Assembly: GCA_029556545.1 (NCBI GenBank)
Contig: JAKQEQ010000097.1
Location: forward strand, 1-49,343
Direction: 5' to 3'
Length of the DNA: 49,343 bases
Source of the DNA: Candidatus Hydrogenedentota bacterium
Lineage (GTDB): Bacteria; Hydrogenedentota; Hydrogenedentia; Hydrogenedentales; JAGMZX01
In this document: one piece after another, positions 198-35,244 of the stretch
Layout: each line of letters opens with the position of its first letter
How positions within the stretch are numbered: position 1 is the stretch's first letter
Position numbers and translations under genes: made by a program
Notes under the pieces: model-generated
Databases searched by the model: none
Told to the model about the DNA's origin: nothing
What the model saw: only the letters and a program-made list of their open reading frames with translations

Positions 198-396
198 GCC
201 GTTACTCCTTGTTGTTTCGAGGGTAGTCTCGCGGGCAAGCGGAAAATACCATCCGGGGCGCCGCCGACTCAATGATTCGGGAACGAGCGGAGGCCATCGG
301 GCGGACGTGGGGAACCGAGCCACGGGCTCGACCGAAGGTCTCCAAACGCTATTCACCACAGAGGCACGGAGAGCACGGAGAAAATACAGAGAAGCA

Positions 397-3484: not shown

Positions 3485-6400
3485 TCATCGAGCGCGCGGC
3501 GTGACCTGAACGACGGCTTGGGCGCGGGTTCCCGACAGCAGGTCGTGGGCTTTCACGAGGTAGTGGCCGATGCGTTCGTTGCGGGCGAGAGGCAGGAATC
3601 CTTCGCTTTGGCCGCTTTCGCAGCGGACAACCTGCGTGTAATGCTCCAGGTGCTCGCCGCGCATGGTTTCGAGCGTGATGCGCACGAGGTGGACGCCGCA
3701 CATGCCGTCACGCGCCTTCACCGTCAACCGAAACGGGAGGCGATCGCCCTGTGACACGGACTTGGGCGTAGTCAGGTCGAGTCCGGCCACTTCGTAGGGC
3801 AGATGCGCGAGCAATAGCGCCTCGCCCCGCGCCAGACTGAAGCGCGGCTGCCGCCCACGCACCGGCAGGCCGTTGATCAGGTCGTACACGTGGCCGTCCC
3901 GCGGGAGTTCGGGCCGTATGCGTTCGTACTCGGGTCCGCCCTCGGGCGCGCGCACGATAAGCGTGAGGTCGGCGTCGCCGAAACGATACCGCCGCCGCAC
4001 GCCGGGCAGCCGGTCTTCCTCGGGCGCGGCGAGCGGCGCGTCCGAAGCAATCTCCGCTTCGGCCAGTATGCGCCGCAAGACGACGCCCATTTGCCCTTCC
4101 TCCTCGCTCGTACTCGTGGTCGTAATCGATCCCCCCTCCCCCACACTCCCGGCAGCCGGCAGCGCCGTCCGCCGGACGCCGTGCTCGTCGAATTCGCCGG
4201 GGGCGAAGTCGGCGACGACCCGGCCACCCTGCGCCGCGAAATCCGTGATGGCCGCGATTTCGCGATCGCTCAACGCGCGGGTCATGGGCAAGACCAGCAC
4301 GGCGTACTCGCCGAGTCGGCCAGCCTCGAGGTCCTCGCCGGATAAAAAATCGAACCCGACGCCCAGCCCGTCCAGCAGTTCGACCACCGCCGCCTGCGCC
4401 TCGTCATAGCGCGTTCCGCCCTCGTGCATCACGGCGTCGCAATAGCGGCTTGCGGGCGAATCGTAGACGGCGACGCGCGCCTTCGCGGGATCGGCGGTGA
4501 GCAGGAGGGTGTCCAGGCCGTGAGCGACAGCCGCATACGACGCCGCGAACTCGGCAAAGAACGGGGCCGGGCGGCCATCCGGCGCGAGCGCGGCATCTGG
4601 CGCGGCGTCGAGGGCCGTACCGAACGGTTCGGTCAGCCAGACCGCGTCACAGCCTTGGGCCAGCGCATGCCACGGCAACCAGCGCGCGTGTTCCGCCGAG
4701 CGGAGCGTGCCCCCGTCAAGGCACAGCGCCACGGACGTGGCCAGCGTCTTGTATGAGCGCAGTCTGGCTTCAAGGGCGGGGTCGGGGTCGATGGCAAGCC
4801 AGTCCATCGTGCGCGCCAGCGTGGGCCAGTCGTACCCGCGCATGGGGCCGCCATCGTTGCGCGCGCGAAAGCCGACGCGCGCCTGCGGGTCCACTCCGCG
4901 CATGGCCGCGCGCGCGCCGTCGAGGAAGCCGGTGAAAGTGGAGTCCGTGAACCGGCGAAAGTCGACCCACGACGCGGGGCAACCCAGTTCCCGCGCTTGG
5001 TCGATTGCGAGGGGGCGCACTTCGGCCCAGTCCGTGAAGCGGGAACTCCACGCGGCGTTCAAACCGTGGAGACCTTCGGTCGGCGCGATGGCGCGGTCAG
5101 GAGACCGGCCAGAACGGGCGTTCGGATGGTCTGCCTTCAATCGTGTCCGAAAAGACGCGAGACAGTGGGCGCACTGGCAAACATTGTCGTCGCCGGCGAA
5201 GAAATACGCGGGATTTCCCAGCGAATAGTCGAGCACGCCGGAGACGCCGAAGCGCCGCACGGTCTCGGCGAGCCGCGTCCGCTCGACGCCGCCGTAACTC
5301 GGGTCGCTCAGGCACGGCCCGCGCACGAGCCCTTCTTCGACGTGGTCCGCGGCGATGCGCGCGGCTTCCGCGATGGGCCGCAGATTGAGGCGGGTCAGGT
5401 GGAGGTGCGCCGCCGCGCCCGCGTCCGTGTAGACGGCGTCAAGCCCGGCGTCCGCCAAGATATCGAGCATGTGCCGCGCGTTGTATTCGTATGCCGCGGG
5501 GGCCACCGCCGCCAATCGCAGCGCGCGCGGCAACCGCACCTGCCGCACCGGCAGCACCCGCACCTCCGCCGCGGCCATGTTCAATTCCCAATCTTCGAAG
5601 GTGTGAAGTTCGCCGGGCACGGCGTAGACCTCGATCTTGACGCTCGGCGCGATGAGGTCGGCGAACGGCAGCGCGAGCGACACGTCGCCGCCGCCCTCGG
5701 GCGCGGGCACGGCATTTTCCGCGACGAGGCGGTCGAGGGCGTCGATGCCGCGCGCGTAAATGGCGAGCGGGCGCGCCTCGCCGTATACGGTGCGGAGCTT
5801 GAGCGAAATGTCCACGCTGTCGTGCGGCAGGATGAACGTCTTCGAGAGCCGCAGGTCGGTGAACGAGGGCCAGCCCTCGACCGCCACGGACTCGGAGTGC
5901 CACATGACGATGCCGCGCCGTCCGCGCAACTGGAAATCAAGCAGGTAGCGGCCCGGCCCCGCGAGCACCTCCGCCACGTAGGCATCGGCCCCCTTGCGCA
6001 GTTGCCGCAGTTCGTCGTACACGACGCGCAAGCCGCGATTCGGGTCGCGCAGTTGTACGGTGACGTCGTATGCGCGGTCCGCGGGGCGGTTGAAGCGCAG
6101 CCGAAATGCGCGAATGGGCGATTGCACGATGGAGTCGCGCATGGTCTGTATGAATTCGGACGGCAAGTCGGGCGGGATTTCCTCCTCGGGCGGACCTTCG
6201 GGGGCCAGGTTGTCGACTTGCATCACCCAGAGGTCCGAGTCGCGGCCCGCGGCCCAGCACACCGCCCGCGCGACAAGTGAGAAATAGGAATCCAGGAACT
6301 CGGGCACCGCATGCACCGGGTTGGCCAACGCGGGCAGGAAACAGTGCGTCGCGGGCTTGTCCTCCCGGAACGGCAGCAGCACGACGCGCCCTTCCCCGTA

Positions 6401-8208: not shown

Positions 8209-8316
8209 GGACGACCTTCAACGGCCCCGGAATTGTTGTTCGCCGGCGATAGAACGCTTCGGTCGCCGCGCCGGCGCGGTCAGGCCACCGGTCGTAAGAG
8301 GCAAGGAGACGTGTTC

Positions 8317-11988: not shown

Positions 11989-13947
11989 TTACCAGCCGAG
12001 GGTGCGGGCGATCCAGCCGAGACAGTGGCGGGCGCGCATCGAGCCCGTGTGATGGCGGAGGAGCTGCGCGCGGCCGGCGGCGGCGATGCGCGCACATTCG
12101 TCCGGGGACGCGAGCAGGCGATCGAGTTTAGTCTCCATTTCCTCGAGATCGCCGAAGAAGACGGCGCTTTCGCCGTCAACGAAGTCAAACGGGATGCGGA
12201 TGGGCAGCCGCTCCGAGAATAACACGACGCCGTGCGCGGGGAGTTCCCAGTATCGCACCGTATCAAACCCGAAACCGAAGCAGTTGAGACCCACGCGGCT
12301 TTCGTGGAGCAGCGTCAGATATTGTTCCTGCGGATAGCCTGCAACCAGTTCGACGCCGAGCCGCGCCTCGATGCGTTCGAGGAACAGCCGCCGCAAGCCG
12401 GATTGCCGATGTCCGGCCCAGAAGAACTGGCGTGGTCGCGGCGTGGCGCCGGGCGCGGGCGCTACTCGGCAGTCGGGGTAGGCAAAGGGCAAGGGAAAAG
12501 CATTCGGACCGTAATCGACGCAACGCAGCATTTCGCGCTTGAAGTAGCCCGCGACGGAGGCCACGCCAAGTTGATCCATGACGCGGGCGCGGAGGTCCAT
12601 GGCCGCATCGAGGGCGTCCACAATGAAGAGCGGCGTGTTTCCCGCGGCGCGCGCGATGGCGTGGGCGGTCTCCCGCGGCAGATTCGCCTCGCAATCGCCG
12701 TAGAGCACAACGTCGAATTCGCCTTGGGCCAACTGGTCAAGGAGTTCTTCGAGGGCGACAGGCCGGCCCGGACGGTCGAAGGTGCACGGGTATTCCTTGT
12801 ACTCCTCGGGCGGTGCGCCGTGCAGAGAAGGCTTGTAGGGGAACTCGACAACGTTATTATCGCCCAGCGTGGCGCACAGGCCGTCGTAGAGCACGTCCAG
12901 TCCGTAATGGGGACGCGGATGGAGCACGAACAGGACGCGCGGCGCGGCGCGGCCTGCCGGGGCCCAGTCGGGCGCGGCTTCCGCGGCGGCCCTTGTCTCG
13001 GGCGGCGGTGGGAGCGCTCCAATCTGTCTGGCGACGGCATCGGAAGGCGCGACACGCTGCGCGGAGCGGAGGAGCCGCCGGGCCATGTCGCGGTCGCCGA
13101 GGAGGCGCCAGAATTCCGCCTGGCATTGGTACGCGGGGGCGAAATCGGGTCTGTCGAACACGAGCTGATGGAACAGTTCCTGGGCCTTGTCGAAGTGGTC
13201 AAGTGGCCGAAGGTCAGCGCGGCGTTTCAGGTCGGACAATAGGCACAACTGCATGAGCGCGCGGACATTGATGCGAACGTCCGTCTCCTGGAGATAGACG
13301 GCGGGAATCAGCGCCAAGACCTCGAAGGCCGAATCCGGCCGCCCTGCGTCGAAGAGCGCCTCCGCATGTTCGAGCGGGTTGTAGTCCGGTCGCACGAGCA
13401 CCAGCAGGCACTCGCCGGCAGGAGCATCTCCATCACCGGCTTCAATCACGGGCGGGACGCCCCTGCCACGGGCCAAGGGCGCGCGGTGATAGAGGCCGAA
13501 CCCGGCGTCCCGCGCGGCCTCCAGGATACGGTCATACGCGTGCCGGCGGACGGTGTCCGCCGCCTCGGTCGCGGTTTCGTCGGGCGGCGCAGGCGCGCGC
13601 AGCATCAGATAGCCGCGCGGATTCAGGGACGGGGCCAGCCTCGTAAGGCGATCCCGCAGGACGTTCGCGTCGGGATCGATTTCCAGGGCGAGCAGCGCGT
13701 CAAAATGGGCGTCGGGGAACGGGCAGGCTTCTCCGGGTTCCTCGACGACGGCGTTCAGGCATTCCCGCGCGAAGGGGATGCACTCGGGGCGCGATTCGAC
13801 GCCGAAGACCTCGATGCCGCGTTGCTTTCTGAGGAGATACCCGAGTTCGCCGCGCCCGGCGGGGGCGAGCAGCAGCCGTTGAATGAACATTGGCAGCCAC
13901 GACGCCAAGTCGATGATTTCGGCGGGGCGGCTCGCGGGATTTACCAT
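11989..13947 (-). CDS. Methyltransferase-like / TPR / CgeB-like glycosyltransferase fusion
   Basis: This 652-residue protein has three parts. Residues 1-175 resemble a class I SAM methyltransferase fold used in hypothetical-modification enzymes (LLLAPAGRGELGYLL, then GIEVFGVE, FDALLALEIDPD), although the classic GxGxG is poor. Residues about 185-300 are TPR-like helices (LVFDRPDFAPAYQCQAEFWRL). Residues 325-652 are a CgeB-like GT-B domain: VLFVLHPRPHYGLDVLYDG, FDVVLYGD, FFWAGH, then LHESRVGLNCFGFGFDTVRYWELPAHG. It may modify or polymerise a surface glycan. The ATG at 13947 has a GAGGG site. Half of repeat family B is read in frame near residues 160-169. Confidence 0.7.
   Translation of the reverse strand: MVNPASRPAEIIDLASWLPMFIQRLLLAPAGRGELGYLLRKQRGIEVFGVESRPECIPFARECLNAVVEEPGEACPFPDAHFDALLALEIDPDANVLRDRLTRLAPSLNPRGYLMLRAPAPPDETATEAADTVRRHAYDRILEAARDAGFGLYHRAPLARGRGVPPVIEAGDGDAPAGECLLVLVRPDYNPLEHAEALFDAGRPDSAFEVLALIPAVYLQETDVRINVRALMQLCLLSDLKRRADLRPLDHFDKAQELFHQLVFDRPDFAPAYQCQAEFWRLLGDRDMARRLLRSAQRVAPSDAVARQIGALPPPPETRAAAEAAPDWAPAGRAAPRVLFVLHPRPHYGLDVLYDGLCATLGDNNVVEFPYKPSLHGAPPEEYKEYPCTFDRPGRPVALEELLDQLAQGEFDVVLYGDCEANLPRETAHAIARAAGNTPLFIVDALDAAMDLRARVMDQLGVASVAGYFKREMLRCVDYGPNAFPLPFAYPDCRVAPAPGATPRPRQFFWAGHRQSGLRRLFLERIEARLGVELVAGYPQEQYLTLLHESRVGLNCFGFGFDTVRYWELPAHGVVLFSERLPIRIPFDFVDGESAVFFGDLEEMETKLDRLLASPDECARIAAAGRAQLLRHHTGSMRARHCLGWIARTLGW
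13441..13469 (-). repeat. Family B half-element inside a coding sequence
   Basis: This is the CACGGGCG-gga-CGCCCcTG hairpin of family B with one stem mismatch, plus flanking bases shared with 35191-35219. It is translated in frame as RGRGVPPVIEA between the methyltransferase-like and TPR parts of the fusion protein. Confidence 0.7.
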
Positions 13948-18151: not shown

Positions 18152-18200
18152 TGGAGACCTTCGGTCGGGCCGGTGGCGCGGTCGTGAGACCGGCCACAAC
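18152..18200 (+). repeat. Family A repeat, intergenic copy
   Basis: It matches 5067-5115 at 43 of 49 positions. A partial third unit (gagaccggccacaac) follows within 35 bases. Confidence 0.8.
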
Positions 18201-23282: not shown

Positions 23283-23669
23283 ATGGACAGTAAAGGCTTC
23301 ACCCTCATCGAGTTGATCCTGGTGGTGGTGATTATCGGCATTCTGGCCGGGGCGGTGGTGCCGATATTCGGCGGCCGGTCGACGGAGGCGCGCATCAACC
23401 GGGCGCGTTCCGATATCGCCATGTACCTGGGGTTCATCTCGGCGTATGAGATAGACAACGGGCGTTATCCGCAGCGCCTCGAGGACCTGGTCAGCGGTAA
23501 CCGCAAGTATGTCCGCGAACTGAACCGCGACCCGTGGGGCAATCCGTATGTCTATGTCCCGCCGTCGGGCGCGACAAGCGACGACTTTGACGTGTTCTCG
23601 GCGGGACCGGACGGCCAGCCGGGCACGGCGGACGACGTGACCCTGAACACGGAAGCGACGGTGCGCTGA
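23283..23669 (+). CDS. gspG: GspG-type major pseudopilin
   Basis: This 128-residue prepilin has the short leader MDSKG cut before FTLIELILVVVIIGILAG, with Glu5 kept. The C-terminal part has the GspG hallmarks: a long helix (NRARSDIAMYLGFISAYEIDNG), LNRDPWGNPYVY, and an acidic tail (SAGPDGQPGTADDV) that normally binds calcium. It builds the pseudopilus shaft. GGAGG lies seven bases before the ATG at 23283. The longer frame to 23214 is not part of the protein. Confidence 0.95.
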   Translation: MDSKGFTLIELILVVVIIGILAGAVVPIFGGRSTEARINRARSDIAMYLGFISAYEIDNGRYPQRLEDLVSGNRKYVRELNRDPWGNPYVYVPPSGATSDDFDVFSAGPDGQPGTADDVTLNTEATVR

Positions 23670-23680
23670 GCAGCCCGGCC

Positions 23681-24325
23681 ATGAGTAAGTTTCTTGGGAT
23701 CGCGGCAGCGGCGCACGCGTGGTGTCTTGCCCATGTTTCGAAACCACGGGCGGGACGCGCGTGCCACGTGCGGTGTCTTGCCCATGTTCCTGAACCACGG
23801 GTGAGACGCCCGTGCCACGGGTGGGGCGGTTTCACGCTGCTGGAACTGGTCGTCGTCCTTTCGCTGATCGCCATTCTTACGGGGCTGGTGGTACCGGTCT
23901 ACGGCGGATCGATGGCCTCGATGCGGATGCGGGGCGCGCAAAGCGACTTTCTCTCGCTCATCCGGTACGTACAGGAGCGGGCCATCACGGACGCACGCGA
24001 ATATCGCCTCTATATTGACGGCAAGGAAAACGAGTTCTGGGTCATGTATATGACCGGCATGAAGGACGGCGAGAAGGTTTTCGAGGAAGAGACGCGGGAC
24101 TACGGGCGTCGGCGCGCGTTTCCGGATCGGCTGGTCGTCGAGCGCGTGCGGGGGCGCAAGGACCGCGATCGGAATGCGCACTACATCACCTGCTATCCGA
24201 ACGGGGCCTGCGACGTGGCCCGCGTTGACATGCTCGATGCGCAGAACCGCCGCCGCCGCACGACAATCGAGACGACGGGCGTCGTCGGGAAGAACGAGAT
24301 CAAGACGCCCTGGACCCGGAGGTAG
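23681..24325 (+). CDS. gspH: GspH-type minor pseudopilin with repeat-extended leader
   Basis: This 214-residue prepilin has its processing site at GG-FTLLELVVVLSLIAILTG, near residue 50. The leader is about ten times longer than normal because residues 12-45 are two 17-residue copies (HAWCLAHVSKPRAGRAC and HVRCLAHVPEPRVRRPC) translated from a tandem pair of family B repeats. A GTG at 23801 would give a normal leader (MRRPCHGWGG), but no ribosome site is clear at either start. The body (residues 51-214) is a minor pseudopilin head with RMRGAQSDFLSLIRYVQERA. It lies 11 bases after gspG. Confidence 0.8.
   Translation: MSKFLGIAAAAHAWCLAHVSKPRAGRACHVRCLAHVPEPRVRRPCHGWGGFTLLELVVVLSLIAILTGLVVPVYGGSMASMRMRGAQSDFLSLIRYVQERAITDAREYRLYIDGKENEFWVMYMTGMKDGEKVFEEETRDYGRRRAFPDRLVVERVRGRKDRDRNAHYITCYPNGACDVARVDMLDAQNRRRRTTIETTGVVGKNEIKTPWTRR
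23714..23815 (+). repeat. Tandem pair of family B repeats in a coding sequence
   Basis: Two 51-base units (23714-23764 and 23765-23815) each carry gtgtcttgcccatgtt followed by the CACGGG-type hairpin. Related single copies are at 35191-35244 and 13441-13469. The unit length is a multiple of three, so the GspH frame is kept. Confidence 0.85.
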
Positions 24326-33235: not shown

Positions 33236-34075
33236 ATGAAACGCCTCATCGCACTCGCAATCCTCCCGATGATCGTCGCCGCGTGCCAGCGCCCCGGCAA
33301 GGAACTGGTCCGTGCGCCGCTGCCGCCCGGCGCGCCCGACGCGGCGGTCATCCTGGCCGACCTGGCGGCGCACGACGCGGCGGTACAGTCGTTTCGCGGG
33401 CCGTGTTCGGTGACGCTGGAGTCGCCGGATCTCGCCGGGAAGCAGGTGCTGCATAAGAGCAGCGTGTATTTTCTGCGACCGGACAAACTCCACGTGACGG
33501 GTCGGAAATATGGCAGCACGGTGATGCGGTTGACCTCGGTGGGCGGGGAATTCCTCATCGAGTTCCCTTCCGAGAAGGAGTACTACTACCGCTTTGAAGG
33601 CGAGCGCGTCGAGAGTGTCGCCTTCAGCGTATCGCCGTCGGACATCGCGCGGGAGATGTTCTTCCCGGAACCGTGGGCAACCTTGGACGGCGCGCAGACG
33701 CGCCTGAGCACCTATGACGCCGCGAGCCAGTCCGCGCGATTCGAGGTGTTCGAGGCGGACGGCCGGCACATCCGCCGCGTGGTCACGGTGCAGGGCCCGC
33801 CGTGGGTCCTCGTACGTAACGAGCGGCTCGACCACGCGGGAAGGGCGGTATCCGTCACAACGCTCAGCGATTACCGGCGCTTCGACGGCGTGTACATGCC
33901 CACCACGGTCGAGGCGGTGTTTCCACTCGACGCGACATCGATGACACTGAGTTTCCGGGAGATCAGGACCAATACGCCGATCGAAGACGCCTGGTTCGAC
34001 ATCGACGCACGCGCGCGAGAACTGCGCATACTCCTGGACAAGACCGCGGACCGGCCCCAGCAGGGCAAATATTGA
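33236..34075 (+). CDS. LolA/LolB-like lipoprotein
   Basis: This 279-residue lipoprotein starts MKRLIALAILPMIVAAC, with a lipobox ending at Cys17, so it should be anchored in the periplasmic or outer membrane leaflet. The body is a beta-rich half-barrel type of sequence (VYFLRPDKLHVTGRKYGS, FLIEFPSEKEYYY, YMPTTVEAVFP) like LolA/LolB and related DUF4292 proteins that bind lipid or lipoprotein acyl chains. It is followed after 29 bases by rlmN. Confidence 0.7.
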   Translation: MKRLIALAILPMIVAACQRPGKELVRAPLPPGAPDAAVILADLAAHDAAVQSFRGPCSVTLESPDLAGKQVLHKSSVYFLRPDKLHVTGRKYGSTVMRLTSVGGEFLIEFPSEKEYYYRFEGERVESVAFSVSPSDIAREMFFPEPWATLDGAQTRLSTYDAASQSARFEVFEADGRHIRRVVTVQGPPWVLVRNERLDHAGRAVSVTTLSDYRRFDGVYMPTTVEAVFPLDATSMTLSFREIRTNTPIEDAWFDIDARARELRILLDKTADRPQQGKY

Positions 34076-34104
34076 GGCCGTTTGCCTCCCCCGGAGTACT
34101 ACAC

Positions 34105-35214
34105 ATGGCAAACGACGACAAGATCGCATTGACCGGCAAGACCGCGCGGGAATTGGCGGAAGCCCTGGAGCTCAAGGCGTATCAGGGGCGGCAGTTGTTT
34201 CAGTGGCTGCACAAGCGGCGCGTCTTCGATTTCGAGCGCATGACCGACCTGCCCAAGTCGCTGCGCGAACGACTGCGCGCGGAGTGCATGCCCGCGCAGC
34301 TCGCCGTCATCGAAATGCGTGAATCGCCCCGGACCGGAACGCGAAAGGCGTTGCTGCAACTGCCGGACGGGGAGGCGGTCGAGGCCGTGCTCATCCGGGA
34401 CGGGGAGCGGCTGACGGTGTGCCTGTCGTCTCAAGTGGGGTGCCCCCTGCAATGCGCGTTCTGCGCCACGGGACTCGCCGGCTTCACGCGCAACCTGTCG
34501 CCCGGCGAGATCGTCGAGCAGGCGCTTCACCTGCTTGTGGGGGAAGACCTCGAGGGGCGCACGCCGAATATCGTGTTCATGGGCATGGGCGAACCATTCC
34601 GGAATTACGACGCCGTCATGAGCGCGATTCGCCTGCTGATGGAAGCGGACGGCCTCGGCATCGGCGCACGGAAGATTACGCTGTCCACCGCGGGCGAGGC
34701 GAAGGCCATCGAGCGCTTCGCCTGGGAGGGGTTGCAGGTGCGGCTCAGCGTGTCGTTGCACGCGGCCAATGACGCGTTGCGCGACCGCCTGGTGCCGCTG
34801 AACCGGCGCTATCCCTTGGACCGCCTGCGCGAGGCGATCGAGACGTATACCCACGAATCCGGGCGTCAAATCACCTTCGAGTGGACGCTGCTGGAGGGCG
34901 TGAACGACGAGCCGCACCACGCGCGCGAGTTGCTCGAGTACGCGGGAGGGCTCAAGGCGTTCGTTAACCTCATTCCCTGGAATCCCGTCCCCGGCATGCC
35001 GTTTCAGCCCTCGACAAAGCAGCGGGCCCAGGCGTTTCGGGACGTTCTCGTCGAGGGCGGCGTCAAGGCCACGTTGCGCGCGGAAAAGGGCCAGGACATC
35101 GACGCCGCTTGCGGCCAACTCCGCCGCACGCGGGCGATGGAAGCACGCGCGGCCAGCGCGGGCACGCCGGAGACCGGCCAAGGCGGGAGTGTGGCACGGG
35201 CGTCCCGCCCGTGA
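34105..35214 (+). CDS. rlmN: Dual-specificity rRNA/tRNA adenine-C2 methyltransferase RlmN
   Basis: This 369-residue radical-SAM enzyme methylates A2503 of 23S rRNA and A37 of some tRNAs. The iron-sulphur cluster motif is CPLQCAFC (Cys113, Cys117, Cys120), and a GMGEPF motif follows. The methyl-carrying cysteine is near residue 336 in AACGQL. The 33 residues after it form an unusual tail whose last eight (SVARASRP), and the stop codon, come from a family B repeat. The start at 34105 has a GGAG site; the longer frame from 34072 lacks one. Confidence 0.95.
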   Translation: MANDDKIALTGKTARELAEALELKAYQGRQLFQWLHKRRVFDFERMTDLPKSLRERLRAECMPAQLAVIEMRESPRTGTRKALLQLPDGEAVEAVLIRDGERLTVCLSSQVGCPLQCAFCATGLAGFTRNLSPGEIVEQALHLLVGEDLEGRTPNIVFMGMGEPFRNYDAVMSAIRLLMEADGLGIGARKITLSTAGEAKAIERFAWEGLQVRLSVSLHAANDALRDRLVPLNRRYPLDRLREAIETYTHESGRQITFEWTLLEGVNDEPHHARELLEYAGGLKAFVNLIPWNPVPGMPFQPSTKQRAQAFRDVLVEGGVKATLRAEKGQDIDAACGQLRRTRAMEARAASAGTPETGQGGSVARASRP

Positions 35215-35244
35215 TTCCAGACATGGGCAAGATGCCCATGCCAC
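35191..35244 (+). repeat. Family B composite palindromic repeat (full copy)
   Basis: There are two hairpins of the same 8-3-8 shape: CACGGGCG-tcc-CGCCCGTG (35195-35213) and CATGGGCA-aga-TGCCCATG (35222-35240). They differ at stem positions but still pair. The rlmN stop codon (35212-35214) is inside the first hairpin. All three minus-strand frames and at least one plus-strand frame are open through it. Confidence 0.85.

Follow-up and report, generated by a model that had tools for sequence, protein, structure and literature searches.

In-frame copies of a dispersed palindromic element in the probable leader of a GspH-type pseudopilin of Candidatus Hydrogenedentota

Results

A gspH gene with repeats in its leader

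The window, by which we mean the whole stretch of 49,343 nucleotides that was analysed, carries a gspH-like gene that starts 11 nt downstream of the TGA stop of gspG. The features of this locus are as follows.

23286..23669, forward strand: gspG, upstream of gspH (T2SSG PF08334, E 1e-16; TIGR01710 above cut-off)
23681..24325, forward strand: gspH-like minor pseudopilin gene, 214 codons from ATG 23681 (open reading frame, TIGR01708, congener orthologue 78% identical)
23681..23830, forward strand: gspH leader of 50 residues by translation, ending at the G/F junction 23830/23831, net charge +7
23714..23764, forward strand: element copy 1, a shortened REPIN of 51 nt, read as HAWCLAHVSKPRAGRAC
23765..23815, forward strand: element copy 2, 51 nt, read as HVRCLAHVPEPRVRRPC, 84% identical to copy 1
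23801..23803, forward strand: alternative in-frame GTG start of gspH, giving a 10-residue leader (MRRPCHGWGG), without an upstream Shine-Dalgarno sequence

The GspH translation reads MSKFLGIAAAAHAWCLAHVSKPRAGRACHVRCLAHVPEPRVRRPCHGWGG up to the cleavage site and FTLLELVVVL... after it, and contains the prepilin motif G/F-T-L-x-E (the slash marks cleavage) followed by a hydrophobic stretch. The NCBIfam GspH model TIGR01708 matches from residue 50 onward, with an E value of 6e-13 that is below the curated cut-off. Judged by this match and by its place between gspG and two further prepilin genes downstream, the gene is a GspH-type pseudopilin. The original prediction described two 51-base repeats read in frame within a 50-residue leader, and their coordinates, length and frame hold: each unit makes up 17 codons, both lie after the eleventh codon and before the cleavage site, and together they supply 34 of the 50 residues. 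Taking them out would leave a leader of 16.

The repeat is a REPIN

The repeat had also been predicted to be a dispersed element, and the whole-genome search agrees. In the source genome (6.12 Mb; a draft assembly of 195 contigs, 96% complete), allowing up to 3 mismatches, we counted 158 matches to arm B, ACGGGCGGGACGCCCGTGCCAC, and 115 to arm A, GTGGCATGGGCATCTTGCCCATG, while reversed-control patterns gave 0 matches in the same search. We collected at least 132 distinct element clusters, 59 of them plain A-B doublets, all in one relative (inverted) order. The doublets are mostly 49 to 57 nt long in total, and nearly all have the outer ends GTGGC...GCCAC, with heads of the GT(A/G)G type; each arm consists of an outer GTGG head, a 7-bp stem and a 5-nt loop. 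The consensus is predicted to fold into a single hairpin (−37.2 kcal/mol, z −5.3), the opposite strand similarly. An inverted REP pair is the anatomy of a REPIN (PMC3116915), and GTGG is an accepted variant of the head (PMC2817692). No CGTC tag was found at the element ends, where the outer heads are GTGG, so this is not a CGTC-tagged REP. Genic copies number 15 to 23 among the at least 132 clusters, compared with about 112 if placement were uniform, and the element is thus high-copy and mainly extragenic. These sequence features identify the repeat as a REPIN of about 55 nt, built from a short spacer between two inverted REPs that carry GTGG heads. It is also frequent in the congener (72 copies), reaches 94 copies in some other genera of the order and is absent from many. 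Another repeat family, TGGAGACCTTCGGTCGG..., is dispersed at window positions 314-344, 5067-5115, 8250-8298 and 18152-18200, and at several other loci.

The gspH units are shortened copies that were probably duplicated in place

Against the genome-wide element consensus, unit 1 has a local score of 55 and unit 2 of 65, compared with maxima of 26 and 25 over 1000 shuffles. Neither a chance resemblance of GC-rich sequence nor an assembly artefact, for which a draft assembly gives some room, deserves more than minimal credence: none of the 1000 shuffles reaches the family-consensus match, the control patterns matched nothing, and the units differ from each other at about 8 of 51 bases and in many encoded residues, hence they are not one stretch assembled twice. 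The left arm of both units is 6 nt short, with the 5′ half of its stem lost, and neither gspH copy retains the two heads and two stems of a complete doublet. By sequence, they are decayed, shortened REPIN copies. The shortened left arm, GTGGTGTCTTGCCCATG, occurs genome-wide only in the gspH units, apart from one two-mismatch match elsewhere. Since the two units have this shortening in common and it is unique in the genome, the simplest reading of the tandem is a single decayed copy that was inserted and later duplicated, in line with the duplication originally proposed.

The insertion is lineage-specific

Our comparison rests on one congener genome (G001). Its gspH is 78% identical, has an ATG likewise 11 nt after the gspG stop and encodes a 21-residue leader in which we found no element, with scores within the shuffle range. 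Since the ATG position is the same and the repeat is missing, the gspH insertion is, on this alignment, lineage-specific, and the in-frame entry of the element into the gene is borne out. Relatives with an equally long leader and no repeats elsewhere in their genomes would have spoken against such an entry; the 21 residues of the congener leader do not fit that pattern. Two candidate readings were rejected here, namely that the tandem repeats are a conserved long leader, which the congener gspH does not have, and that the congener leader is itself a decayed element copy, for which its consensus score is no better than that of shuffles. Across the order, gspH leaders vary, mostly from about 8 to 30 residues, with a few possibly longer. 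The net charge of the leader is +7 here versus +2 in the congener.

The element is read in frame in other genes

Copies elsewhere in the window had been described as intergenic or at gene ends. Two of them, with one host gene, are listed here.

35191..35244, reverse strand: full 54-nt element copy that supplies the last codons and the stop of rlmN
13447..13470, forward strand: single element arm, read in frame as RGRGVPPV by a minus-strand gene and absent from the congener orthologue (L258)
about 11995..13947, reverse strand: host gene of the 13447 copy, glycosyltransferase-like, PF13524

The description stands for the first copy: rlmN (34072-35214, forward strand) ends in the element-encoded ...GGSVARASRP, and the congener alignment stops before the element. 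It fails for the second, which lies inside a coding gene, and it missed the scale of the phenomenon, as at least 15 other recognisable genes contain the element in frame.

We called a copy genic when coding-type codon usage flanked it on both sides and an open frame ran through it. In this way 23 clusters fall inside genes; for 15 of them, the host gene has a domain that can be recognised or aligns with a congener orthologue. The clearest host is methionine synthase (metH), where the congener has ...QYAREPA-YDGRPLF... and this genome has ...QYAREVA-RGTGVPPVSEDHGQDAHAT-WDGRPLF.... Clean empty sites are found in the congener at several host genes, including metH and a PIG-L-type gene; the congener empty sites are divergent, and exact target-site duplications cannot be read there. 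Other hosts are a methylmalonyl-CoA mutase-type gene with a MeaB-like domain (the copy lies between the B12 and GTPase domains), an Eco57I-type methylase, a UvrD-type helicase, a 2-hydroxyglutaryl-CoA dehydratase subunit, a polyprenyl synthetase, a 6-pyruvoyl tetrahydropterin synthase and the E2 subunit of a 2-oxoacid dehydrogenase, which has its copy in a linker and aligns to the congener only as far as the insertion point. A heparinase-like gene has a decayed copy in the congener too, indicating that insertions can persist. We set aside as doubtful in-frame candidates or gene junctions the loci L061, L134, L081, L017 and L199. Another dispersed repeat, read in frame as LSPRERxGVRV, lies beside REPIN copies at L061, L098, L159 and L188.

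The in-frame copies favor one reading phase: 17 of the 23 are in phase 2, compared with 36% expected (p 3e-4), a bias that points to selection on the peptide they encode. A literature search for these peptides found no paper.

Where translation of gspH starts

In gspH the element is read in phase 1, which bears a Cys, unlike the phase 2 of the 17 copies. This counts against translation of the leader, and the phase itself fits either a discarded peptide or no translation at all. Two further observations point the same way. The codon usage score is −0.42 (not gene-like) for the insert and +0.46 for the mature part, and there is no Shine-Dalgarno sequence at ATG 23681, which leaves room for a start at GTG 23801, itself without one. 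In that case the repeats would be untranslated, forming a 5′ hairpin between gspG and gspH that makes gspG mRNA more stable or reduces minor pseudopilin expression. A search within the repeats found no terminator or promoter. The tandem is indeed predicted to fold strongly (−70 kcal/mol, z −2.4); other pseudopilins of both genomes mostly have leaders of 5 to 10 residues with a Shine-Dalgarno sequence; and N-terminal REPs often prove extragenic owing to wrong start calls (PMC3733652). However, the congener offers no start codon other than the homologous ATG, this ATG lies 11 nt past the gspG stop in both species, a spacing that fits coupled translation, and the GTG sits within the repeat itself, about 130 nt past that stop. 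We therefore regard an untranslated hairpin as unlikely and favor ATG 23681 as the likely start, chiefly from the congener sequence.

A second pseudopilin leader, and a RAYT in the congener

A GspK-like prepilin (L139, contig C48:17029-20050, reverse strand; GspK NF037980 E 3.5e-8, below cut-off, aligned from residue 122) starts at an ATG with a Shine-Dalgarno-like sequence and has a 123-residue leader. This leader contains an element arm and another palindromic repeat, after which the mature protein begins with AALIIAIAIMTILL. The second palindrome is itself dispersed and is also found at L088, L063, L152 and L118.

The congener counterpart (L122, G001:C80:1-2148, reverse strand) has a homologous start and an identical mature start, with 342 residues between them. 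Its frame is open from the start to the mature prepilin and runs through two element copies, a RAYT-like transposase (NF047646 E 3e-19, below cut-off) and four more element copies; contig C80 ends some 30 residues into the mature prepilin, which makes the join of RAYT and prepilin provisional. An element-flanked RAYT was seen only in the congener. In the incomplete assembly of this genome we found no element beside its five PF01797 genes, and the nearest homologue of the congener RAYT is 41% identical, with no element adjoining.

The two prepilin-leader hits compare with 0.01 expected from the in-gene rate (P 5e-5) and 0.27 from the intergenic rate (P 0.03), in a rough, post hoc estimate that assumes about 50 prepilins, 15-codon leaders and 85% coding density.

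Discussion

How a mobile palindrome may have settled in a leader

We propose that a RAYT-type single-strand transposase multiplied the REPIN in this genome; the empty sites in the congener are evidence of insertion and do not identify the agent. One copy would have entered gspH just past the start codon, in a stop-free phase and with a length that kept the frame, and a later tandem duplication would have given the present pair. Translation from ATG 23681 most likely runs through the 34 extra residues. Prepilin leaders in general are cytoplasmic and are cleaved by the prepilin peptidase (PMC10191384). The added residues should stay in the cytoplasm, within a hydrophilic, positively charged leader, so that topology would hold, and the peptidase would remove the long leader and release an unchanged mature pseudopilin. 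The leader may thus be a nearly neutral landing site within a coding gene. We infer that leader removal explains why the insertion is tolerated, and the second, independent case in the GspK-like leader strengthens this point. Taken as a whole, the account of a REPIN inserted and duplicated in the gspH leader, translated, cleaved off and close to neutral seems to us probable.

The extended leader might instead have been co-opted, for example to slow GspH targeting or cleavage and so tune pseudopilin stoichiometry. The frame was preserved across insertion, the 6-nt shortening and duplication, and the rise in charge over the congener could be seen in this light. But the units have diverged in both bases and residues, the congener lacks the long leader, and one genome gives no measurable constraint, so we find co-option very hard to credit and retain the near-neutral reading.

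Relation to known elements

REPINs, RAYTs and intragenic palindromes are already known (PMC3116915, PMC2817692, PMC3733652, PMC10969869). As far as the available portions of PMC3116915 and PMC2817692 describe them, the REPIN/RAYT systems of the Pseudomonas fluorescens type have inverted REPs, outward GT(A/G)G heads, a variable spacer and a predicted hairpin, as here, along with more than 100 copies, mostly extragenic, and a RAYT flanked by copies, which in our case is found in the congener. Our element is a different sequence family from the REPs tabulated in those portions, with stems CATGGGC/CACGGGC, and departs from these systems in its sizeable in-frame share and in that no cognate RAYT was found beside it in this genome. 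The intragenic GTAG/CGTC REPs of Opitutus terrae and Rickettsia conorii (PMC3733652) are likewise in-frame REPs or dimers of 20 to 30 residues, some repeated, and in the part of that report available UvrD/REP-type helicases are among the hosts, as they are here; that part contained no prepilin leader. The Rickettsia palindromic elements (RPE-1, Ogata and colleagues, cited in PMC10969869 and PMC3733652) are, in these citing accounts, selfish palindromes read in frame at permissive positions of many unrelated genes. The likeness is one of behaviour only. RPEs are about 150 nt long and belong to an obligate intracellular alphaproteobacterium, whereas our element measures about 55 nt, has GTGG heads and is linked to a RAYT.

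We found no counterpart in the open-access literature to this prepilin-leader setting, with its two cases in a single genome and its transposase in the congener. Such a search carries little weight, and the role of prepilin leaders as tolerated sites of insertion seems to be new. A part of a protein that is translated and then discarded is an obvious harmless entry for selfish DNA, yet examples are few. Here the same mobile palindrome appears in the protein code of two pseudopilin leaders of one genome, one of them with a transposase in the congener, and this adds to Rickettsia a case of many in-frame palindromes together with a likely cognate transposase. Annotation should anticipate repeat-encoded peptides (GTGVPPV...HGQDAHAT, GMGILPM...HGRDARAT, WHGHLAHV...SRAGRPCH) within real proteins.

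We also offer, as a long shot, that prepilin leaders are a favored refuge of REPIN/RAYT because they are cleaved off, and that in the congener a complete RAYT would be made as the leader of the GspK-like protein and freed by the prepilin peptidase. If this were true, the selfish transposase would be expressed and released without any cost to the mature protein.

At L081, one of the loci set aside above (copy at C157:10782), a protein whose C-terminus has a hydrophobic stretch, an element arm and a pseudopilin (26 residues before the motif) follow one another in a single open frame, which makes the locus either a junction between genes or a third example of a leader insertion.
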